Of a DNA stretch of 35,726 nt, positions 21,496-32,341 are shown piece by piece. Numbering within the stretch: position 1 is the stretch's first letter; each line of letters starts with the position of its first letter. The stretch covers positions 1-35,726 of the forward strand of contig JAJTXU010000020.1 in NCBI GenBank assembly GCA_021462845.1, in the 5' to 3' direction. Origin of the DNA: Anaerolineales bacterium (GTDB lineage: Bacteria > Chloroflexota > Anaerolineae > Anaerolineales > Villigracilaceae). A model generated the notes under the pieces. That model saw nothing but the letters and a program-made list of their open reading frames with translations. It had not been told where the DNA came from and ran no database searches. Position numbers and translations under genes: made by a program.

Positions 21496-22287
21496 TCAAT
21501 CTTTCATCTGTTTTCCCGTCCCCTTATCGCGCAGCATCAAAATCTCCGCCATGATGCTCACCGCGATCTCCTCCGGCGTTTCGGCGTTCAACTCCAAGCC
21601 CATCGGCGAATGGACTCGCGCGATCAATTCATCGGACACGCCTTTTCCTTTCAACGCCTTGACCGTCGTCAGCCATCTTCGTTTCGAGCCGATCACACCG
21701 ACGTATGCCGCCTTCGATTCGAGAAGCGGAGGCAGACCCGCCGCGTCCACTCCGGACCCTCGGCTGGTTACCACTAGGAAAGTTTGGCGCGTCATCTTCA
21801 GCTGACTCGGCAACTCCGCCATTGGAACTGGGTAATACGCGTCAGCCCCCGGCACAGATTCGGGGTTGCAAAACTCCGCGCGATCATCGCTGACCGCCAC
21901 TCGAAATCCCAGCCACTTCGCCAAATGGACGACTGCCTTGCCCACATGCCCGCCGCCGATGACGACGATCATCGCGGGAGGAAGAATCGGTTCCACAAAC
22001 ACCTCCACAGTTCCGCCGCACACACCCGGGTCGCCGCGCTTGGGATTAACAAGGTTGTATGTAATTGTGCGCGGCTTGCCGTCGCTGATCGCCATCCACG
22101 CCTCGTCGAGGACGCGGTGTTCCAAATCCCCGCCGCCGACCGTGCCGATGAATTTGCCATCCGGGTACACCAGCATTTTGCTCCCCACATGGCGCGGCGT
22201 CGAGCCTTCGCTTTTAGTCACCGTGCATAGCGCGGCGGATTCGTTATTTTTTTCGAGTTCTGAAAGGGCTTGGAAGATTGAGGTCAC
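21496..22287 (-). CDS. xdhC: XdhC-family molybdenum cofactor insertion protein
   Basis: This 263-residue protein of the XdhC/CoxF family binds, protects and sulfurates molybdenum cofactor and delivers it to xanthine-dehydrogenase-type enzymes. The N-terminal domain has AALCTVTKSEGSTPRHVGSKMLV and TVGGGDLEHRVLDEA. The C-terminal Rossmann domain has VVIGGGHVGKAVVHLAKWLGFRVAVSDDR, and it ends in MGLELNAETPEEIAVSIMAEIL. Both halves are complete. Its ATG overlaps the HEPN gene by four bases (ATGA), so in this genome it is translated behind a TA-type pair. Its probable client is the fused molybdenum protein at 25448-28450. Confidence 0.93.
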   Translation of the reverse strand: MTSIFQALSELEKNNESAALCTVTKSEGSTPRHVGSKMLVYPDGKFIGTVGGGDLEHRVLDEAWMAISDGKPRTITYNLVNPKRGDPGVCGGTVEVFVEPILPPAMIVVIGGGHVGKAVVHLAKWLGFRVAVSDDRAEFCNPESVPGADAYYPVPMAELPSQLKMTRQTFLVVTSRGSGVDAAGLPPLLESKAAYVGVIGSKRRWLTTVKALKGKGVSDELIARVHSPMGLELNAETPEEIAVSIMAEILMLRDKGTGKQMKD

Positions 22288-23429: not shown

Positions 23430-24767
23430 TCACTCCAACAATCCCAACACCACTGGCAACAATTGCTTTTTCCTCGAAACTACTCCCTGCGCGTCGCGCG
23501 TGCCATCGGCGAGCGGAGGGTAGGGCAGGTCGCGGAGGATGGGCGGGGCGTTGGGAGTGACGATGAGTCGGCTCGAGCCGCGCACAACGTCGGTGATGAG
23601 GAGCATGGCAAAGTCGAGCCCGTGCTTGTCTTTCAGTTCATCCAATGCCTTTGTGAGAGGAGCAAGATGTTCGGCAAGTTGCAGAAGATCGGTCACTTCG
23701 GCTTGCGCGATGGCGAGTTTGAATCCGCCCGCTTCGTATTGTTTGACGTCGGTGCTGACGATCTCGCTCGGATCGCGGTTCGAGAGACCGGCGCCCGCGG
23801 AGAGCAAGGCTTTGCCGAACGATTCGATCGTCTCGCCTTTGAGCGGACTCCCGCCGACGAACGCCCAGCGCGAGAGTCTTTCGGCGGCGTCTTTGTCGCG
23901 CTGTGTGGTGGTGGGAGAGGTCAAGATGAGCGTGTCAGATAGAAGTCCCGCGAGAAGCGCGCCGGCGAGGCTGGGCGGCATCGAGAGTCCCGCTTCCGCC
24001 GTCTGTTCGGAGACGAGAGTCGAGGTCGAGCCGACGATATCCACTTTGAAACGAATCGGAGTGTGGGTGTGCGGGTTGCCGAGGCGGTGGTGATCCAGAA
24101 TTTCGAGCAGTTCGGCTTCCTCCAGCGCGGCGATCGCCTGACGCGGCTCGTTGTGATCCACTAAAATTATTTTCAAGCGGGGCGGGTTGAGAATTTCGCG
24201 TTGACGGGCAATGCCGAGATATAAACCGCCTTCATCCACCACCCAATACTCGTCGGTTTCGTCGCGCAGGATGCGGTTGAGAAAATCGCGGATGTGACCG
24301 CTGGCGGGGAACTTCGGCACGTTTGGATCTGCCGCGTCTTTGCACGGCGCCGACATCATCTCTCGCACGGTCGTATCGCCGGGGCGCGGACCGAGTATTT
24401 GTGTGAAATATTTGAACAGGCTAAACCCGTTGATCAAACCGAAGGGTTTGCCGTCTTCATCTACAACCGGCGCGACGCCGCCGGTCTTGCTGGCGAGGGT
24501 CCATGCGAGACCGAGTTGCGCATCGGGGCGCAGGCTGTCGAGTCTTTGCATGACCGATTCGAAGCGCGGCGACGCGTCGGTGAGCAGGACGGGCGGGTCG
24601 AGTTTCAATTGTTTGAGTAGCCACGCCGATTGCGGATTCAACGCGCCCGCGCGCGCCGCAACCGCTTCCGCGCCATCGCGTTCGCGCAGAAGCCATGCGT
24701 AGCCCATGGCGGAGGCAATGGAGTCGGTGTCGGGGTTGACGTGCCCGATGACGAAGGTTTTACTCAT
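23430..24767 (-). CDS. ppaC: Family II (DHH) inorganic pyrophosphatase with CBS domains
   Basis: This 445-residue manganese-dependent pyrophosphatase hydrolyses PPi to two phosphates. The DHH part begins with VIGHVNPDTDSIASAMGYAWL (metal-binding H-x-x-P-D-x-D). It is interrupted at about 70-205 by a pair of CBS-like regulatory domains (VMQRLDSLRPDAQLGLAW, GVAPVVDEDGKPFGLINGF, DEYWVVDEGGLYLGIARQ). It resumes with ILVDHNEPRQA and EILDHHRLGN. The DHHA2 domain ends in VVSRKKQLLP, whose Ser-Arg-Lys-Lys binds phosphate. CBS pairs in this family bind adenine nucleotides and regulate activity, and no DRTGG domain lies between them. A diverged relic of the same 3' end is found 380 bases downstream. 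Confidence 0.93.
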   Translation of the reverse strand: MSKTFVIGHVNPDTDSIASAMGYAWLLRERDGAEAVAARAGALNPQSAWLLKQLKLDPPVLLTDASPRFESVMQRLDSLRPDAQLGLAWTLASKTGGVAPVVDEDGKPFGLINGFSLFKYFTQILGPRPGDTTVREMMSAPCKDAADPNVPKFPASGHIRDFLNRILRDETDEYWVVDEGGLYLGIARQREILNPPRLKIILVDHNEPRQAIAALEEAELLEILDHHRLGNPHTHTPIRFKVDIVGSTSTLVSEQTAEAGLSMPPSLAGALLAGLLSDTLILTSPTTTQRDKDAAERLSRWAFVGGSPLKGETIESFGKALLSAGAGLSNRDPSEIVSTDVKQYEAGGFKLAIAQAEVTDLLQLAEHLAPLTKALDELKDKHGLDFAMLLITDVVRGSSRLIVTPNAPPILRDLPYPPLADGTRDAQGVVSRKKQLLPVVLGLLE

Positions 24768-24852: not shown

Positions 24853-25074
24853 TTAGGCAAATTCGATGACTTCTTCTTCCGCCAGCGACGCCGCGTACAT
24901 CAGGGCTTCATCAATGTCTTCCGATTCAAGATAGGGGTAAGCCTTGAGGACGGAATCGCGAGTTTCGCCCGATGCAAGCAGACCGAGCAAGCGAGAGACG
25001 GGGAATCTCAAGTTGCGGATGCAGGGTTTGCCGTTAAACACGTCAGGATTGGTGGTGATTCTTTTGAAGGTCAT
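24853..25074 (-). CDS. DUF433 protein without a DUF5615 partner
   Basis: This 73-residue protein is a minimal DUF433 domain: ITTNPDVFNGKPCIRNLRFPVSRLLGLLASGETRDSVLKAYPYLESEDIDEALMYAA. The G-K-P-x-I-R-x-x-R-x-x-V segment, the Y-P-x-L-x-x-x-D-I-x-x-A-L-x-Y-A helix and the length match small antitoxin-type members. Its ATG overlaps the end of the MazG-like gene (ATGA). The usual toxin gene is missing, since only 85 bases separate it from the pyrophosphatase start. It is either an orphaned antitoxin or works with the MazG-like protein. The other DUF433 gene in the window (4582-4914) does have a toxin partner. Confidence 0.87.
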   Translation of the reverse strand: MTFKRITTNPDVFNGKPCIRNLRFPVSRLLGLLASGETRDSVLKAYPYLESEDIDEALMYAASLAEEEVIEFA

Positions 25075-25448
25075 TTTGAATACCTCGCAATTGTTTGTGG
25101 CTTAATTATACCCTCGCCTTCATCGCCAGTTAGCAACTTGTTGATATGCTCGTCGAGATCGTCCATAGTTTTCATGAATGCTGATTCGAGGTCAACGTGA
25201 TGCGCCTTTGCCAGAATGATAACAGACCAAAGGCAATCTGCGAGTTCGTGCGCGAGTTTGTCGTGCGCTTCTGATATTTTGCGCTTGCCTTGTAACGCTA
25301 CGATCAATTTGGTCAAGTCGCCAACGTCGCCGACGAAGCCTAGCGCAAGTTCCTCGGTTGACCATTCTGCGCCGTATTGCTTCTGTTCAAGCAGGGCATA
25401 CTTGGCGCGGACTTCAGCCGCTCGTTGAATGATCTCTTGAAATTCCAT
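25071..25448 (-). CDS. MazG-like nucleotide pyrophosphohydrolase
   Basis: This 125-residue helical protein of the all-alpha NTP pyrophosphohydrolase group probably converts a nucleoside triphosphate to the monophosphate. The sequence EELALGFVGDVGDLTKLIVALQG corresponds to the E-x-x-E helix pair, with the usual E-x-x-E reduced to G-x-x-G-D. The second helix HDKLAHELADCLWSVIILAKAHHVDL carries the E-L-A-D-x-L metal motif (E-x-x-D). The first acidic motif is therefore partly degenerate. The ATG at 25448 overlaps the stop of the molybdenum protein (TAATG). A longer form from 25469 would run into that gene and is rejected. The substrate is unknown. Confidence 0.8.
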   Translation of the reverse strand: MEFQEIIQRAAEVRAKYALLEQKQYGAEWSTEELALGFVGDVGDLTKLIVALQGKRKISEAHDKLAHELADCLWSVIILAKAHHVDLESAFMKTMDDLDEHINKLLTGDEGEGIIKPQTIARYSK

Positions 25449-28400
25449 TACTTCTTCATCGCCCGCCACACGCGTTCAGGCGTGGTTGGGATCGCATCCA
25501 CGTTCACGCCGATGGCGTCGAGGATGGCGTTGCCTACCGCGGGCGCAACCCCGTCCATGGGGATCTCGGCGACGGCTTTGACTCCGAACGGGTGACTCGG
25601 CTCGAAGGTCTCGACGAAGATCGTTTCGAGTTCGGGCATTTCATCGGCGCGGAAGATATGATAACGGTCAAGGTCGCGTTCGATGGCGTCGCCTTTGTCG
25701 TCGTAGCGCATCTCTTCGCAGACTGCGTAACCGAGGGCTTGGGTCATGCCACCTTCAATTTGTCCCGACGCGGTGAGCGGATTCACGATCACGCCCGAGT
25801 CAACCGCCATCACGAGTTTGTCTACGGTGACCGCGCCTGTTTCCGTATCCACCGTCACTTCGGCGAACTGAGCGGCAAATGGAGGGGGAGAGACTGGCGA
25901 AACATACGACGCGACTCCCATGATCTGCTCTTGTTGATCCTTGTGGAGGGAGTGCAAAGCGATCTCAGCGAATGAAATTGTTTTTCCATCGGGGGCAATC
26001 GCCATTCTGTTTTCGAGACGAATTTCCTCCTCTTTGTATACGTGTGTACTTGTTTCCTTGTCTACCTGTTTACCTGCATTCAACATCATCGCCGCGCGGA
26101 CTTTGATTCGTTCCGCAACAACGTTCGCCGCTTTCACCGCCGCCGCGCCAGAGATGTAAGTCGTTGACGAAGCATACGCGCCTTTATCAAACGGCGTGAA
26201 GTCTGTGTCTGATGAATAGCAGATCATATCTTCAAGCGGAACTCCGAGTACCTCCGCCGCCATTTGCGCGAGGACGGTATCTGAGCCTGTGCCGAGATCT
26301 GTCGCGCCGACGAGCATGTTGAATGATCCATCGTCGTTCATCTTGATGGATGCGCCGCCCATATCGAGGTAGGGAATCGCTGTGCCTTGCATCACCATCG
26401 CGATGCCGATGCCTTTACGTTTGTGGGACAAATTGGCAATTTGTCCTACGCGCCACGATTCATTTCCATATTTATCATCCCATGCAATCGCGGCTCTGCC
26501 TTGCGCGACACATTGTTCCAACCCAACGGTCTGGACGATCTCAGGTCGCGGCTCGCGTCCTTCGTTCCATGCGGTGGAGAACGGATGATACTCGCCGGGG
26601 CGAATCGTATTTTTCAAACGGAAGTCAATCGGGTCGAGGTTCAACGCGCGGGCGATCTTTTCCATGTGACGTTCGACGGGCCAATATCCCTGCGGCACGC
26701 CGTAGCCGCGGAACGCGCCTGCGGGCGGCGTGTTGGTGTACACCACGTCCGCATAAAATTGGATGTTCGGACTCTTTCGATAGTCGCCGTCGCCGACGTA
26801 CAACGCCATCGCTTTGTGACCCGTGTTGCCTGTGACGGTGAGCGCGTGACAGCCATACGCGCCCGTGTCGGATAACGCGTACATCGCGTTGGCTGTGATC
26901 GTACCGTCTCGCTTCACTCCCGTCTTCATCTTGACTCGCATTGGATGCCTTGATCGCGCCGCGATAAATTCCTCCTCGCGTGTGTACTCGTAGATGACGG
27001 GTTGCTTCGTTGCAATCGTGAGATGCGCGGGGACATCTTCCATCAGCACTTCCTGCTTGCCACCGAATCCGCCGCCGATGCGCGGCTTGACCACGCGGAT
27101 TCGCTTGACGGGCAAATTCAGCACAGGCGCGAGCATCCTCCGCACATGGAACGGAACTTGCGTGGACGTGCGAATCACCAAACGATCATCTTCATCCCAA
27201 TACGTGACGCACACATGCGGCTCGATGGAAACTTGCTGGACTTTTGGCACTTCGTATTCCGCTTCGAAGATTTCATCCGCTTCTTTGAATCCTTTTTCCA
27301 CGTCGCCGATGTCAATGCGGATGTGCGCGGCGAGATTCTTTTCGGGGTTCGAGTCGGCAAAATTGACGTACTCAGGCTCGTCGTGGATTCGAATCGCGTC
27401 GGGTTTCATCGCCTCGCGCGAGTCGAGGATGGAATCCAGAACTTCGTATTCCACTTCGATCAGCGTCAATGCCTTCTCTGCAATTTCAGGAGTCTCTGCC
27501 GCAACCAACGCGACGCGGTCGCCGACGAAGCGGACTTTGTGATCGAGTGAAAACGTATCGAGCGGACCGGGGATCGGATCGGATTGTCCCGCCGTTGAAT
27601 ACACCACGCGCGGAATATCTTGAAACGTAAGCACAGCCGCGACGCCCTTCAATTCTCTGGCTTTGCTCGCGTCAATTTTTTTGATGAGCGCGTGCGCGTG
27701 CGGCGAATGCAACACTTTCGCATACAACATGCCGCGCGCGTCCATGTCCGCAGTGAAAGCGGGCTTGCCCTGCACGAGTTTGACCGCGTCCACTTTTTTC
27801 TCGGGCTTGCCAACGGTTTGCCAAGTTTGCGATTCAGGCGTCACCACAACCTTCGGGCGCGTCATCACGCCAGCGAGTTGCGGCGAATCAAATCCAGACG
27901 GCGATGATGAATCGGTTCGCGGCGCGCCGAAATCCCAGTTGATCGTGTCCACTCGAATCGGTTCGTCGCCGCGCATCACCGCCGCCGCTTTCAACACGGC
28001 TTGCACAGGTTTGAGATAACCCGTGCATCGGCACAACACGCCGCTGATCGCCTCGCGCACTTCCTCTTCACTCGGATTCGGATTCGTTTCCAGCAGTGCC
28101 TTCGCCGCAAGGATTTGCGCGGGCGTGCAAAATCCGCATTGGATGGCGCCCGATTCAACGAACGCCTGTTGAAGCGGATTCAAGCCATCGGTCTTTTTCC
28201 ACCCTTGATCGGGATGTTCGCCCAACGCTTCGATCGTGACGACGAGATGTCCCTCCGCTTGCGCCGCGAGCATAGACCCCGCGTTGACGGGTTTGCCGTC
28301 CAGCAGAACCGTGTCCGCGCCGCTCAGCCCGCCCTCATCGCCGAACTTGACGCCGTAGTAGCCGAGTCTGCGTACGGCGGAGAGTAATGTTTCTGAGGGC

Positions 28401-28450
28401 GCGCAATCAATTTCGTGTTTGTTTGAGTTGATGGTGAGGGTGACGTTCAT
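25448..28450 (-). CDS. Xanthine-dehydrogenase-like protein: degenerate ferredoxin domain + [2Fe-2S] domain + molybdenum-binding domain
   Basis: This 1000-residue fusion combines the small Fe-S subunit (about 1-165) and the large molybdopterin subunit (about 225-1000). In the ferredoxin-like domain the ligand pattern C-x4-C-x2-C is replaced by D38-x4-S43-x2-D46 (FGDEGGLSGADTV), and the fourth Cys is Gly58. The second Fe-S domain is intact: IQCGFCTPAQ (C105, C108) and VLCRCTGY (C140, C142). The large domain has the HSPHAHALI, RIGGGFGGKQ and GAFRGYG-type segments and a C-terminal GVKAVAEIP with the catalytic Glu. The domain fusion resembles the XdhD/selenium-dependent group. The ATG at 28450 has AGGAG upstream. 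A form starting at 28498 would begin inside a heptad repeat. Confidence 0.92.
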   Translation of the reverse strand: MNVTLTINSNKHEIDCAPSETLLSAVRRLGYYGVKFGDEGGLSGADTVLLDGKPVNAGSMLAAQAEGHLVVTIEALGEHPDQGWKKTDGLNPLQQAFVESGAIQCGFCTPAQILAAKALLETNPNPSEEEVREAISGVLCRCTGYLKPVQAVLKAAAVMRGDEPIRVDTINWDFGAPRTDSSSPSGFDSPQLAGVMTRPKVVVTPESQTWQTVGKPEKKVDAVKLVQGKPAFTADMDARGMLYAKVLHSPHAHALIKKIDASKARELKGVAAVLTFQDIPRVVYSTAGQSDPIPGPLDTFSLDHKVRFVGDRVALVAAETPEIAEKALTLIEVEYEVLDSILDSREAMKPDAIRIHDEPEYVNFADSNPEKNLAAHIRIDIGDVEKGFKEADEIFEAEYEVPKVQQVSIEPHVCVTYWDEDDRLVIRTSTQVPFHVRRMLAPVLNLPVKRIRVVKPRIGGGFGGKQEVLMEDVPAHLTIATKQPVIYEYTREEEFIAARSRHPMRVKMKTGVKRDGTITANAMYALSDTGAYGCHALTVTGNTGHKAMALYVGDGDYRKSPNIQFYADVVYTNTPPAGAFRGYGVPQGYWPVERHMEKIARALNLDPIDFRLKNTIRPGEYHPFSTAWNEGREPRPEIVQTVGLEQCVAQGRAAIAWDDKYGNESWRVGQIANLSHKRKGIGIAMVMQGTAIPYLDMGGASIKMNDDGSFNMLVGATDLGTGSDTVLAQMAAEVLGVPLEDMICYSSDTDFTPFDKGAYASSTTYISGAAAVKAANVVAERIKVRAAMMLNAGKQVDKETSTHVYKEEEIRLENRMAIAPDGKTISFAEIALHSLHKDQQEQIMGVASYVSPVSPPPFAAQFAEVTVDTETGAVTVDKLVMAVDSGVIVNPLTASGQIEGGMTQALGYAVCEEMRYDDKGDAIERDLDRYHIFRADEMPELETIFVETFEPSHPFGVKAVAEIPMDGVAPAVGNAILDAIGVNVDAIPTTPERVWRAMKK

Positions 28451-28465: not shown

Positions 28466-28553
28466 GTTGAAGGTTGAAAGTGGAAAGTCGAAAGTCAAAG
28501 GTCGAAGGTCGTTGGTTGAAATTATGACCTTTGACTTTCAACCTTTGACCTGA
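28466..28553. repeat. Inverted period-7 repeat element (class B, GTYGAAR heptads)
   Basis: Eight consecutive heptads in perfect register (GTTGAAG, GTTGAAA, GTGGAAA, GTCGAAA, GTCAAAG, GTCGAAG, GTCGTTG, GTTGAAA) occupy 28466-28521. After a short spacer, four complementary heptads (GACCTTT, GACTTTC, AACCTTT, GACCTGA) fill 28526-28553. The arms can pair as a long hairpin. The left arm fills the gap between the methyltransferase stop and the molybdenum-protein start. The right arm lies inside the methyltransferase gene and encodes its last residues (RSKVESQRS) and stop. Confidence 0.88.
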
Positions 28554-29613
28554 TACTTTTTCTTAATTCATCAATCACAATTTTATTCCCGTTTTCATCT
28601 TTGTAGAACCACACATCCCAGCCGTTGACGGGGGCGCCGTTCATCAGGGATTTTGCCACAAAGTGAATCGAGCCAGTGACCTCGCCGCACTTGATGTGTC
28701 CGTTGGCGAGGACTTTTGCCTTCTTGCCGTTCTTTGCAAAATACAGCGTTTGCCCGGGGTTCAACAATCCGTTTTCGAGCAATGTCCCAAATGGGATGCG
28801 CGTTTGCTTGCGTTTCTCGGAAAGGATCAACACCTCCGCCGGAGAGGAGAGGACCGCGTCAATGCGTTGTTGCGCGACCTTGATGTACTTCTTGTCGCGT
28901 TCGATGCCGATCCAGTTACGACCGAGTTTCTTCGCGACCGCGCCGGTGGTGCCAGAGCCGAAGAAGGGATCAAGGATCAAGTCGCCCCGTTGAGAAGAAG
29001 CGAGGATGACCCGGTAGAGTAATGCCTCGGGCTTCTGAGTCGAGTGTGCTTTCGTCCCGTTATGTTTGACGCGCTGTTTGCCCCTGACCAGCGGAAGTTC
29101 CCAATGCCGCCAGTCGGAGCGCATTTGCAAATCCTCGTTGAGGGCTTTCATGGCGTGATGGTTGAACGTGTACTTTGCGCCTTTTTTCTTCTGCGCCCAG
29201 ATCATTGTCTCGTGCGCGTTGGTAAAACGAACGCCGCGGAAATTTGGCATAGGGTTGTCTTTGATCCACAACAGGTCGTTGAGAATCCAAAAACCCAAAT
29301 CTTGCATGATCGCGCCGATGCGGTAGATGTTGTGATACGTGCCGATAACCCAGAGCGTGCCGGTGTCTTTCAACACGCGTTGACTCGCGCTCAGCCAATC
29401 GCGCGTGAACTTGTCGTACGCTTTGAAATCCTCGAACTTGTCCCAGCCATCGTTCACCGCATCCACTTTGCTCAGGTTGGGACGATACAGGTCATTGCGG
29501 AGTTGCAGGTTATACGGCGGGTCGGCGAAGATGACATCCACCGAGTTCGCGGAGAGTGTTTTGAGAATCTCGACGCAGTCGCCGTGGAGGATCTGGTTGA
29601 GAGGGATGGTCAT
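28522..29613 (-). CDS. CcrM-like adenine-N6 DNA methyltransferase (probable GANTC specificity)
   Basis: This 363-residue beta-class N6-adenine methyltransferase has motif IV DPPYNLQL near the N-terminus, then the target-recognition region. The SAM motif I is DPFFGSGTTGAVAKKLGRNWIGIE. A C-terminal domain of about 85 residues (RIPFGTLLENGLLNPGQTLYF, ending NGWDVWFYKDENG) is the CcrM-type extension, also called RAMA-like. Length and domain order match Caulobacter CcrM (about 358 residues), so GANTC is the likely target. No cognate restriction gene is seen. The ATG at 29613 overlaps the AbiEii-type gene by four bases (ATGA). The final nine residues come from a heptad repeat and are probably not part of the native family fold. 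Confidence 0.92.
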   Translation of the reverse strand: MTIPLNQILHGDCVEILKTLSANSVDVIFADPPYNLQLRNDLYRPNLSKVDAVNDGWDKFEDFKAYDKFTRDWLSASQRVLKDTGTLWVIGTYHNIYRIGAIMQDLGFWILNDLLWIKDNPMPNFRGVRFTNAHETMIWAQKKKGAKYTFNHHAMKALNEDLQMRSDWRHWELPLVRGKQRVKHNGTKAHSTQKPEALLYRVILASSQRGDLILDPFFGSGTTGAVAKKLGRNWIGIERDKKYIKVAQQRIDAVLSSPAEVLILSEKRKQTRIPFGTLLENGLLNPGQTLYFAKNGKKAKVLANGHIKCGEVTGSIHFVAKSLMNGAPVNGWDVWFYKDENGNKIVIDELRKSIRSKVESQRS

Positions 29614-30254
29614 TTCAGCCAACTCTGCTCGATGGATTTGGCTTCTTCGGTAAAGTAATTCTTCACGGTATCCCAAGATACGGATTGTAAGAGCATCGGG
29701 TCGGGATCATGGTCAGCGCTCTCGAAATAAACGAGACGTTTTGTAACTTGAACCTCAAAGTCGCGCACGGACGGATATTTTTTGGGAGCAAGCTCAAGCA
29801 GGCTTTGTAAGGAAACTTTCTGCGAAATAAAATACAGATCATAAAAATCTTTGCGATTTGCCCTTGAAAGCAAGGCGTCCATTTTCATCAGGGCAATATC
29901 TTCGATGGATGCCATACGGAGATTTTCGTCCTCCACCAGCGGCTTTAACAGTGCATATCCGTATCCGAAGAATCCAATTCGAACATTTTTTGCAGTAAAA
30001 ACCAGATTGCCCCAAGACGCATCCGATAATTCGGGCTTCAGCGCGGAGAGCGACTCTTCAAGGCGGACACGTATGGAAGGGATATCTTCGGTCGGCGAGA
30101 AGAGATCGAGGTCAACAGACCGGCGGCGCCCCAGTTGAAGCGAAAGCGCGGTGCCGCCCGCGAGATAAAACTTGCCTCCTATTGTGCTGTTGAAGAACTC
30201 GCGCAGGACGTCTCGCATGTCTTCTGTAACAGTATTCCAAAATAGCGCCGTCAT
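29610..30254 (-). CDS. AbiEii-type nucleotidyltransferase toxin
   Basis: This 214-residue protein of the AbiEii (PF08843) nucleotidyltransferase family has GGKFYLAGGTALSLQLGRRRSVDLDLFSP. Here G-G-T-A-L-S-L and S-x-D-L-D-L-F are the nucleotide and metal site. MASIEDIALMKMDALLSRANRKDFYDLYFI is the conserved C-terminal helix pair with K-x-D-A and R-x-x-K-D-x-x-D-L. AbiE systems block phage growth and plasmid loss by modifying a host RNA or protein target. The TAATG overlap with the upstream small gene and the ATGA overlap with the downstream methyltransferase put three genes in one coupled unit. Confidence 0.9.
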   Translation of the reverse strand: MTALFWNTVTEDMRDVLREFFNSTIGGKFYLAGGTALSLQLGRRRSVDLDLFSPTEDIPSIRVRLEESLSALKPELSDASWGNLVFTAKNVRIGFFGYGYALLKPLVEDENLRMASIEDIALMKMDALLSRANRKDFYDLYFISQKVSLQSLLELAPKKYPSVRDFEVQVTKRLVYFESADHDPDPMLLQSVSWDTVKNYFTEEAKSIEQSWLK

Positions 30255-30516: not shown

Positions 30517-31038
30517 TTATATCAATCGTTTCTTCAACTCTTGCAGATGAGCCAGAATATCGGGATTGAAATCGAATTTGCCCGCCTGAGGCAGGGCGTC
30601 GGCGAGTATGCGTTCCAATTCAACTGCGCTGATCTGGTTGTGTTGTATCAGGAAAACGATATCATCCAAATCACGGTCGCTGCCTCGATCCAACTTGCTG
30701 AGCGCGATGCTGTACGGATCGAAAATGAAGACATCAACGTTTCCAAATTGACCGATATGAATACCGCGTTGCTCGTTGCCTTCCGGCAGAGGCACGAATC
30801 GCTCGATGGGAACTGGTTCTGTATCCAGTCCCATCTCGTTTGCAACTTCTTCGATGACAAGTTGAAAGTTGTCTTTTTGCAGGTCGTCGCCTACATAATC
30901 AATGTCGAGCGTTTCTCGCGAACTTCCGAGAAGGATTAATGCGCTGCCGCCAAGCAGATGAAGAGTCGCTGGTTTGGGGTAACGCGCTCCCAATTGTTGG
31001 AGAAAATCCTGGATAGCCTGCTTAGACACTTGCCTCAT
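30517..31038 (-). CDS. DUF6036-type nucleotidyltransferase
   Basis: This 173-residue protein has the core LLGGSALILLGSSRETLDIDYVGDD, a nucleotidyltransferase active-site signature (G-G-S-A-x-x-L-x-G, then R-x-T-x-D-I-D). VDVFIFDPYSIALSKLDRGSDRDLDDIVFLI supplies the conserved K-L-x-R-x-x-x-R-D-x-x-D helix. Such proteins are common in TA-like gene pairs in Chloroflexota and Cyanobacteria. Its ATG overlaps the upstream unknown gene by four bases (ATGA). It is not homologous in detail to the AbiEii gene that follows 17 bases after the next small gene, so two different nucleotidyltransferase modules lie back to back. Confidence 0.85.
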   Translation of the reverse strand: MRQVSKQAIQDFLQQLGARYPKPATLHLLGGSALILLGSSRETLDIDYVGDDLQKDNFQLVIEEVANEMGLDTEPVPIERFVPLPEGNEQRGIHIGQFGNVDVFIFDPYSIALSKLDRGSDRDLDDIVFLIQHNQISAVELERILADALPQAGKFDFNPDILAHLQELKKRLI

Positions 31039-31550
31039 TTAAATTTTTCCATGTACTTAACCAGGCGTTCTGCGCCATGTTCGTAAGTTTCAAGCCAGTT
31101 AATATACTGGTCGCTTAAGACTTGATGTTGTTGCGCCAATCTAGCGAGCGCGTGATTTGGATTTGATTCCAGCGCTATGCCTATTTTTTTTGAGAACAGA
31201 TCGGGTAACTGCATCTGTTCTCCATAGATTTTGTTCAATCGCTCTCGAAATTTGCGTTGCAAGAGCAATGCCGCTGTATAGTAAAAGCGAAGGTACAGTT
31301 GACCCGGTTGCGATGAGAGCCCCTTATCCGCTTTCTTTGCGTCGCTGAAAAAATGAGGATGGCGCAGGAACAAGGGTATCAATGCCATGCGTACCCGAGC
31401 ATCTCTGCTCTCTGCCAGGGATTGTATAAGGGTCGCGGAGTCGAGCTGGGGAGTTGGGCTGACTTGTTCTCCCATCAAAAAAGGCACATCCCGCGCCCAG
31501 AGTTCGGACACCAATTGATCGTCGCTAACGGTAACTGGATGAGCGTTCAT
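31035..31550 (-). CDS. Unknown protein coupled to the DUF6036 gene
   Basis: This 171-residue, mostly helical soluble protein is not a family I recognise. It contains LAESRDARVRMALIPLFLRHPHFFSDAKKAD, then LRFYYTAALLLQRKFRERL and a terminal YEHGAERLVKYMEKFK. The ATG at 31550 has GAAAGAG upstream. A longer frame from 31586 would overlap the FAD-subunit gene. The four-base overlap with the DUF6036 gene indicates that the two act together, probably as toxin and antitoxin in a pair where the nucleotidyltransferase domain is the only identified part. The direction of neutralisation is unknown. Confidence 0.65.
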   Translation of the reverse strand: MNAHPVTVSDDQLVSELWARDVPFLMGEQVSPTPQLDSATLIQSLAESRDARVRMALIPLFLRHPHFFSDAKKADKGLSSQPGQLYLRFYYTAALLLQRKFRERLNKIYGEQMQLPDLFSKKIGIALESNPNHALARLAQQHQVLSDQYINWLETYEHGAERLVKYMEKFK

Positions 31551-31567
31551 CGAAGTCTCTTTCTTCG

Positions 31568-32308
31568 TTATTGTACTTCCACGCACCTCTTCGCCAACGT
31601 TGCAGCGACATCCATGCGATATTCGGCGGAGCCGTAATCATCCGTCGCTTCGTGGAAGGCGTTGCGCGCGGCAGTGGAGACATCGTCGGAGGCTGTGCCG
31701 TCCATGGCGAGCATTGGACTTTTGCCATAGCCGCCGACGGCGAGTCTTGTTCTGCCTGAATTCCATTGCGCGAGCGCGACGCAGACGATGGGTTTGTCGG
31801 CTGGCGTGCGCGAGACGTATTCAAATGCGAGTTTTACGTTTAGAGGAACGGTGATGGATGTGATGAGTCCGCGCGGGCGGAGGGGGAGGAATTCGCCGAG
31901 ACTGGAGACTAGAGATTTTTTATCGGAGTCTCTAGTCTCTAGTCTCGAATCAAGCGCAAGTAATGCGGTCGCAAACGTTGATCTTCCGTCGCATGAAACC
32001 AACGCGCCCGCAACTGTGGCGGAGTTGCGAATATTCAACGGCGCTTCAAGTTTCAGCGCGGACTTCAATGCCTCGGGGCAGTGTTCCGATTCGAGGAGCG
32101 ATTGCAGTGTAAGAGTCGCGCCGAGTTCGAGGCTGTTACCGTTGACGCGGAGCGAATCCAAGCCGAGGAGTTGGAGGTCAACCGCATGGATTGAATCAGC
32201 CGTCCCGCGAGAAAGAAGCGTGCCGCCTCCGAGGGGGACGGTGTTCGGTTGGGCGAGAAGCGCGAGGGCTTCATCCAAAGTTTTGGGGCGATGGTAGGCA
32301 GTGATCAT
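31568..32308 (-). CDS. FAD-binding subunit, xanthine-dehydrogenase type (short, with a repeat-derived patch)
   Basis: This 246-residue protein is homologous to the FAD (medium) subunit of xanthine and CO dehydrogenases. The N-terminal TLDEALALLAQPNTVPLGGGTLLSRG and LELGATLTLQSLLES, and IRNSATVAGALVS, correspond to the two FAD-binding loops (usual G-G-G-T-D-L and A-T-I-G-G-N). Here the second reads A-T-V-A-G-A, a departure at a contact position. RPRGLITSITVPL follows. Residues about 122-138 (SRLETRDSDKKSLVSSL) are encoded by a period-7 inverted repeat. At 246 residues it is shorter than the usual 280-300. It is the only FAD subunit in the window and the probable partner of the molybdenum protein. 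Confidence 0.88.
   Translation of the reverse strand: MITAYHRPKTLDEALALLAQPNTVPLGGGTLLSRGTADSIHAVDLQLLGLDSLRVNGNSLELGATLTLQSLLESEHCPEALKSALKLEAPLNIRNSATVAGALVSCDGRSTFATALLALDSRLETRDSDKKSLVSSLGEFLPLRPRGLITSITVPLNVKLAFEYVSRTPADKPIVCVALAQWNSGRTRLAVGGYGKSPMLAMDGTASDDVSTAARNAFHEATDDYGSAEYRMDVAATLAKRCVEVQ
31898..31946. repeat. Inverted period-7 repeat (class A) inside the FAD-subunit gene
   Basis: GAGACTG-GAGACTA-GAGA (31898-31915), a 10-base spacer and GAGTCTC-TAGTCTC-TAGTCTC (31926-31946) form a near-perfect inverted repeat. The first 18 bases match 9198-9215 exactly. The element is translated in frame within the FAD-subunit gene without a stop or frameshift. Confidence 0.85.
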
Positions 32309-32335: not shown

Positions 32336-32341
32336 CAATCA

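Follow-up and report, generated by a model that had tools for sequence, protein, structure and literature searches.

Here we describe a stretch of 35,726 nucleotides from an Anaerolineales bacterium (positions 1 to 35,726 of contig JAJTXU010000020.1, assembly GCA_021462845.1; the whole stretch is called the window below), whose reverse strand carries the gene of an XdhD-like protein of the xanthine dehydrogenase family (XDH). This protein contains, in a single chain and in this order, a ferredoxin-like domain, a helical [2Fe-2S] domain and the molybdenum-cofactor domains. The four cysteines that would hold the iron-sulfur (Fe-S) cluster of the first domain are replaced by D38, S43, D46 and G58, and those of the helical domain (C105, C108, C140 and C142) are intact, which leaves the protein with four of the eight cysteines that characterize the xanthine oxidase family and its two [2Fe-2S] clusters. 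What is new, as read from the sequences, is that either cluster site has been replaced repeatedly, and in a conserved manner, within one lineage in which the molybdenum site is kept. Eight cysteines are the established condition in the wider molybdenum hydroxylase family, and the textbook wire of these enzymes runs from molybdenum through two Fe-S clusters to flavin adenine dinucleotide (FAD); in 4-hydroxybenzoyl-CoA reductase and xanthine dehydrogenase the two [2Fe-2S] clusters are lined up between molybdenum and FAD. The window enzyme is probably an XdhD-like variant that removes oxygen from urate.

Loss of the ferredoxin-domain ligands in the window protein and its close relatives

The state of the eight positions had been reported in a preliminary description of this DNA, and a direct check of residues and codons agreed with it, although the interval to which the observation had been assigned (28309-28450) contains D38, S43 and D46 and leaves G58 and the four helical cysteines outside. 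A TTG at 28498 is a less likely upstream start for the gene; the ATG at 28450 is closely preceded by GAGGAG, as seen directly in the sequence. In Pfam, PF01799 (the helical [2Fe-2S] domain) was matched, MoCoBD_1, MoCoBD_2 and Ald_Xan_dh_C were all above their gathering scores, and the N-terminal ferredoxin domain gave no match at E ≤ 0.01. The closest PDB entry by sequence is 1rm6_A.

We defined close relatives as the 127 proteins that are 70% or more identical to the window protein over residues 210-990. All ferredoxin-set cysteines are present in 38 of them and none in the other 89, a group that was therefore chosen by identity and by the missing cysteines and not by the replacement letters. 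The helical set is intact in 89/89. The letters found at the four vacated positions are given in Table 1, and K35, E39 and N56 are each present in 89/89. As these letters are conserved in the 89 relatives, the replacement appears constrained rather than decayed; on this comparison it is beyond chance, and the loss at D38, S43, D46 and G58 is more than the accident of one gene. Alternative ligands were also sought in these close homologs, and residues 1-78 of the 89 contain no conserved cysteine that could serve instead (Cys16 occurs in 20 and Cys12 in one).

Seven near-fixed differences separate the 89 proteins from the 38 nearest proteins with eight cysteines: positions 36, 38, 46 and 57 (within residues 1-78), position 112 in the helical domain, and two in residues 161-1000. 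Position 42 is added when the group is restricted to the 88 members with both D38 and D46. At position 36 the window group has Phe where the nearest eight-cysteine proteins mostly have His. According to these alignments, the loss of the ferredoxin set goes with a local sequence change.

Cluster-site states among 250 fused proteins

Relatives of the window XDH at E ≤ 1e-100 were found in 51/61 related genomes, some of them being paralogs of ~36% identity. Using L158 as the query at E ≤ 1e-220, matches were obtained in 232/396 genomes of the class, and 327 loci were reduced to 250 distinct fused proteins, the window protein included, after leaving out broken proteins, those cut by contig ends and matches without either end. 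The 250 take in four distant fused paralogs and E. coli XdhD, the only comparison outside Chloroflexota.

Both cysteine sets are kept in 96 of these proteins, the ferredoxin set only is lost in 100, the helical set only in eight, and in 46 the full set is missing at both sites. The ferredoxin set has four cysteines in 104 proteins and none in 146, and the helical set has four in 196, none in 46 and one in eight. In the 54 broken helical sets, position 105 is Ser in 52 and Cys in two, and position 142 is Glu in 50 and Asp in four. At least one acid stands at a ligand position in 144/146 lost ferredoxin sets and in 54/54 broken helical sets. The ferredoxin-only losers with less than 70% identity to the window protein (n = 11) all have D38 and D46, with Ser43 in ten and Ala43 in one. 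Where both sets are gone, the ferredoxin positions mostly carry other letters (S-T-A-D, S-D-S-V), and these lineages have no ligand set in common. For E. coli XdhD, the losses in both domains mentioned in the preliminary description are borne out by the K-12 genome record, which reads D-A-D-S in the ferredoxin set and S-N-S-D in the helical set.

The Fe-S modules of other family members at the retrieved loci served as a control (86 distinct rows). This control covered part of the paralogs, with 40 stretches fetched besides the loci, and a few of its rows are fused paralogs that are also among the 250. Eight cysteines are present in 81/82 complete rows and seven in the remaining one (L382); the four partial rows are two halves of one L006 protein and the broken XdhD-like proteins of L078 and L110, in both of which the XDH frame falls into two parts, through either sequencing errors or real breaks. 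Since the control modules are nearly all intact, the loss of cluster sites is largely peculiar to the XdhD-like lineage.

Separate losses on the tree

Trees were built on the molybdenum part only (residues 205-999), so the cysteine traits are absent from the tree data. FastTree with 105 thinned rows gave 12 changes among the four states. Furthermore, in an IQ-TREE tree of 46 chosen rows (mixture model, quick search), from which E. coli XdhD was excluded because of its long branch, the ferredoxin set changes seven times and the helical set five times, so that the mapping of cysteine losses suggested in the preliminary description yields several events. Approximately unbiased (AU) tests, with groups named after the tree had been seen, rejected a single clade both for ferredoxin loss (p 1.5e-4) and for helical loss (p 4e-5). 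They also rejected the window rows as a clade with L279/L321/L283 (p 8e-50) and with L258/L262 (p 4e-6), and a clade with L202/L036, both of which are among the 89, was compatible (p 0.256). The window group forms an unresolved fork in the 46-row tree. These tests, together with the letters shared by the 11 distant losers, indicate that the D-x-D pattern came back on separate branches.

In branches outside the window group, a stepwise loss in both orders is suggested. L258, without the ferredoxin set, has as its sister L262, which has a broken helical set as well (SH-like approximate likelihood ratio test, SH-aLRT, 100), and L218/L222, without the helical set, fall together with a clade that lacks both sets (SH-aLRT 92). 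The tree itself cannot tell gain from loss, and the eight cysteines are taken as ancestral because they are present across the wider family and in the control. The idea that the window protein is an intermediate stage toward XdhD is not supported as a statement of ancestry, as the losses belong to different branches and the window group has remained stable.

The recurrence of the same letters raises the question of whether D38, S43 and D46 could hold another metal or cofactor that acts as a redox relay in the place of the cluster. The invariance of K35, E39, D46 and N56, the near invariance of D38 (88/89), the constant Ser or Thr at position 43 (89/89) and the repeated origin of D-x-D (p 8e-50 against L279/L321/L283) would fit such a site. 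However, the both-lost lineages mostly use other letters without a common ligand set, and position 36 is Phe in the window group where the nearest eight-cysteine proteins mostly have His, a combination that makes a replacement metal or cofactor improbable.

The molybdenum site and the pathway genes

E. coli XdhD E606, which has been proposed to orient the substrate (PMC12507026), aligns with E630 of the window protein. This position is Glu in 100/100 ferredoxin-lost, 8/8 helical-lost and 46/46 both-lost proteins and in 78/96 intact ones, the 18 intact proteins without it being at or under 46% identity to the window protein. E962, which we take to be the catalytic glutamate of the family, has Glu at its position in 100% of the three lost classes and in 94% of the intact class. 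Molybdenum-site residues in general are near 100% in the window group, and from these alignments the molybdenum site is kept while the cluster ligands are lost. This conservation bears on whether the enzyme is simply decaying, with its function lost, as the missing cofactor ligands and the broken frames in a few genomes (L078, L110 and fragments in G003) might suggest. Decay is extremely improbable, as most close relatives have an open frame with 73-92% identity over nearly the whole length, and the replacements themselves are as well conserved as described above.

Regarding the pathway, SsnA is above its curated cut-off in 45/61 relatives, the window's own genome included, and its co-occurrence with fused XDH (42/7/3/9, hand-assigned) gives a Fisher p of 1e-4, uncorrected for kinship. 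In the own genome, contig C304 carries SsnA, F420-NADPH reductase, CofE, CofD and CofC above cut-off, and the same run includes a luciferase-like oxidoreductase and a nitroreductase-family protein that resembles the FbiB C-terminal domain below cut-off. A protein with NACHT and with HEAT repeats (L201:8434-10986) lies directly upstream of SsnA there. YgeY is also above cut-off in this genome. Judged by sequence-cluster membership only, matching genes continue via the FAD subunit into fused XDH in L202 and L203, which belong to other families of the order, and L204 and L210 carry parts of this SsnA-F420-XDH run. Judging by the gene context and E630, the enzyme is probably an XdhD-like urate reductase with a link to coenzyme F420 genes. 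Such an F420-linked variant of the pathway is not new, since a putative F420-dependent enzyme in Chloroflexota SsnA loci has already been noted (PMC12507026).

The FAD subunit and the route of electrons

The window also encodes a YgfM-like FAD-binding subunit (Table 1) in which the glycine-rich motif of the FAD domain is kept. A close FAD-subunit gene is present in 35/37 genomes of the window's family and in 47/61 relatives, and a FAD gene lies upstream on the XDH strand in 46/80 loci (the genome-contig scan kept the best 80 of 509 relatives). With the window excluded, a FAD gene stands beside XDH for 17/99 ferredoxin-lost, 50/96 intact, 0/8 helical-lost and 23/46 both-lost proteins, 6, 5, 0 and 4 of which, respectively, are uninformative because of short flanks. 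The FAD profile matches 26/26 genomes (25 chosen for unusual states plus G035), some of the matches surely being paralogs, and the top match reaches at least 192 bits in 18 of them, a line drawn after the scores had been seen.

Two simple ideas about this subunit were rejected. Its loss as a result of cluster loss does not apply to the window's family, where the gene is nearly always present (35/37 genomes). A new cluster in the FAD subunit was discarded as well, because one cysteine cannot hold a cluster and Cys77 is the single one that looks clade-specific (30/36 in the window group, 0/34 partners of eight-cysteine proteins, 0/13 nearest partners); positions 176 and 242 first seemed clade-specific, yet they are Cys in five and seven of the 13 nearest.

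The preliminary description had concluded that the wire from molybdenum to FAD is broken in its second half, so that another acceptor, another partner or another chemistry must be used. The break stands, in the sense that one cluster site is gone, the ligands of the other are kept and the stepping stone on the FAD side is lost, but it does not follow that the FAD route is abandoned. The FAD gene is retained as counted above and, furthermore, E. coli XdhD, with neither cysteine set, is reported to copurify with a putative YgfM and to make yanthine from urate with reduced nicotinamide adenine dinucleotide (NADH; PMC12507026). The need for another acceptor is also doubtful, as the context suggests a reductase in which electrons go to molybdenum and the question becomes that of the donor.

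The ligand loss, its conservation, the molybdenum-site glutamates, the FAD gene and the gene context can be taken from the sequences themselves, and starting from them we give a rough probability of 0.45 to an XdhD-like reductase that works with its FAD subunit and the helical cluster alone, with a plugged ferredoxin pocket and either a long hop or a changed docking. The substrate, electron direction, cofactor content, plug and hop are inferred as follows. The most likely reaction is the conversion of urate to 2,8-dioxopurine or another, closely similar dehydroxylation of an oxopurine, and the partner would be the FAD subunit encoded at 31568-32308. If the window enzyme resembles E. coli XdhD, electrons would run from FAD to molybdenum, with the helical [2Fe-2S] cluster beside the metal as their only relay. 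The ferredoxin domain may be retained as a fold and docking surface, its carboxylate and hydroxyl set (D38, Ser or Thr43, D46) filling the pocket and standing in for the cluster in hydrogen bonding and charge. Without the stepping stone, electrons would then have to cover the distance in one long and slow hop, which a slow catabolic reductase could tolerate, unless an altered docking of the FAD subunit bypasses the gap.

The Moser-Dutton rule relates the rate of electron transfer to distance, and at zero driving force it gives 2-10 per second at 20 angstrom and 0.01-0.04 per second at 24 angstrom. In the homologous Kdh the cofactors stand in line, with 13.5 angstrom between molybdenum and the first Fe-S cluster, 13.8 between the clusters and 10.8 from the second cluster to FAD (PMC8305194), and skipping the FAD-side cluster would leave a gap of up to ~25 angstrom. 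A one-cluster hop is thus slow yet conceivable. In the proteins that lack both clusters, electrons would have to cross well over 30 angstrom, at a rate of at most ~1e-5 per second, so for them one has to consider another route, a rearrangement of the complex or a reaction that is redox-neutral.

Several observations weigh against the reductase with a long hop or changed docking. The long hop cannot serve the zero-cluster proteins, so one explanation does not cover the series. The plug has no structural support, as both predicted models are too poor to be informative (N-terminal module from 31 sequences, mean predicted local distance difference test score, pLDDT, 65.0 with residues 33-87 under 50; whole protein from 25 sequences, mean pLDDT 48.8). 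The window XDH reaches no NCBIfam cut-off: its top match, TIGR03313 (Se_sel_red_Mo, XdhD), scores 691.7 bits where 1101.9 are required, and TIGR03311 (selenium-dependent xanthine dehydrogenase) scores 435.4 against 830.45. Likewise, the FAD subunit is below the cut-off of TIGR03312 (67.1 of 241.5 bits) and its gene is not adjacent to XDH, the two being ~3 kb apart in the window. No FAD gene was found beside XDH for 46/99 ferredoxin-lost proteins, many with short flanks, and no close FAD subunit in G035, a genome of the window's family with XDH present. Finally, the YgeX family does not reach its cut-off in the own genome, and the downstream pathway as published is therefore not shown to be complete there.

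Another donor, such as ferredoxin, an F420H2-dependent partner or some other protein, might feed the helical cluster directly by docking where the ferredoxin cluster once led, and the FAD subunit would then be secondary. The F420 enzymes and the luciferase-like, possibly F420-dependent oxidoreductase of the linked gene run are compatible with this, as are the many proteins of the set without a FAD gene beside them. We nevertheless regard this as unlikely, given the close FAD-subunit homolog in 35/37 genomes of the window's family and the FAD-profile matches of at least 192 bits in 18/26 genomes. The helical cluster is, besides, normally buried, which counts against a direct outside donor. In favor of such a donor, the physiological electron donor of clostridial XdhAC is described as undiscovered (PMC12990295).

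Alternatively, the enzyme could be a redox-neutral transhydroxylase between purines, moving a hydroxyl from one to another, with no wire in the catalytic cycle and FAD only priming or repairing the metal. The repeated loss of clusters in this lineage and its rarity among the family's other Fe-S modules (81/82 intact), the conserved molybdenum site of the cluster-less proteins and the fact that xanthine to yanthine is redox-neutral overall would all agree with it. However, E. coli XdhD-YgfM is reported to form yanthine with NADH, although the available text of PMC12507026 has no statement on an NADH-free control, and the xdhA deletion strain is reported to consume no xanthine (PMC12507026), which speaks against xanthine as a direct partner in E. 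coli. We therefore hold a transhydroxylase to be quite unlikely.

Extended to the whole lineage, a broader proposal would be that XdhD-like enzymes turn over without an electron wire, either as redox-neutral transhydroxylases or with a donor that reaches molybdenum without Fe-S relays, both clusters being under relaxed selection and repeatedly replaced by a carboxylate plug, and the FAD subunit being a primer or structural partner. This is unlikely, but if it proved true, molybdenum hydroxylases would have a mode of action not seen before, and nature already supplies enzymes with two, one and no clusters on which to test it.

Whatever the route, one or both clusters have been lost several times, so the standard account of electron transfer to the metal cannot apply to every relative. 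One lineage offers natural versions with both, either or neither cysteine set and the molybdenum site kept, and the FAD gene is also kept in the window's family and in E. coli, so that the route of electrons to molybdenum in uric acid reduction becomes directly testable. Moreover, annotation of such a protein as having two [2Fe-2S] clusters can be wrong.

Neighboring genes

Table 1. Features of the window discussed in the text, with the residues found in the 89 ferredoxin-lost close relatives
Feature	Positions	Strand	Remarks
XdhC-family molybdenum-enzyme maturation protein	21496..22287	-	
XdhD-like fused Fe-S/molybdenum subunit, 1000 residues	25448..28450	-	ATG at 28450
Molybdenum-cofactor domains, residues 210-999	25454..27823	-	
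E962	25565..25567	-	
E630, aligned with E. coli XdhD E606	26561..26563	-	
Helical [2Fe-2S] domain, residues 79-160	27971..28216	-	C105/C108/C140/C142 intact
C142 (TGC)	28025..28027	-	
C140 (TGC)	28031..28033	-	
C108 (TGC)	28127..28129	-	
C105 (TGC)	28136..28138	-	
Ferredoxin-like domain, residues 1-78	28217..28450	-	cluster ligands replaced (D38, S43, D46, G58)
G58 (GGG), place of the fourth cysteine	28277..28279	-	Gly 81, Ala 4, Ser 3, Asp 1
D46 (GAC), place of the third cysteine	28313..28315	-	Asp 89
S43 (AGC), place of the second cysteine	28322..28324	-	Ser 64, Thr 25
D38 (GAT), place of the first ferredoxin-domain cysteine	28337..28339	-	Asp 88, Ala 1
FAD-binding subunit, YgfM-like, 246 residues	31568..32308	-	TTG start at 32338 also open

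Other genes lie on the same strand around XDH. The most frequent XDH neighbor among the window genes tested, present in 63/80 loci, is a DHH/DHHA2 protein with a CBS match (23430-24767), presumably an inorganic pyrophosphatase. A MazG-like protein (25071-25469), whose coding region begins before that of XDH has ended, was matched in 5/80 loci. Between XDH and the FAD subunit there is a CcrM-like adenine DNA methyltransferase with a RAMA domain (28522-29676), of a kind found near XDH in 42/80 loci, and then, at 30517-31586, a 183-residue protein followed by a DUF6036 nucleotidyltransferase, with matches in 23 and 18 of 80 XDH loci, respectively. The 183-residue protein has no Pfam match at E ≤ 0.01 and no NCBIfam match; the two may form a toxin-antitoxin-like pair.

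Comparison with known systems

To the extent covered by the parts of PMC12507026, PMC12990295, PMC2276186, PMC2997495 and PMC8305194 at hand, which are not a full survey of the open-access literature, the missing Fe-S ligands of XdhD are not mentioned. Among the most similar known systems is E. coli XdhD (YgfN) with YgfM, the urate reductase in reductive uric acid breakdown (PMC12507026), which shares the single-chain Fe-S and molybdenum subunit, the small FAD subunit encoded nearby, the glutamate equivalent to E630 (E606), SsnA in the pathway and Asp at the first and third ferredoxin-domain positions. It differs in that its helical set is lost too (S-N-S-D), with 42% identity over residues 210-990, and in its use of YgfK and NADH (PMC12507026) where the window genome has F420-related genes. 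Compared with the window protein, the XdhD-like proteins with eight cysteines from other Anaerolineae (such as L112 and L117, whose gene order is FAD subunit, XDH, XdhC) share up to 81% identity with it over residues 210-990 and differ from the window protein in having all eight cysteines. Finally, the canonical molybdenum hydroxylases (4-hydroxybenzoyl-CoA reductase, 1rm6; Kdh, 7dqx; xanthine dehydrogenase) have the domain order and the cofactor domains in common with the window protein, from which Kdh differs by its two [2Fe-2S] clusters in line between molybdenum and FAD (PMC8305194).

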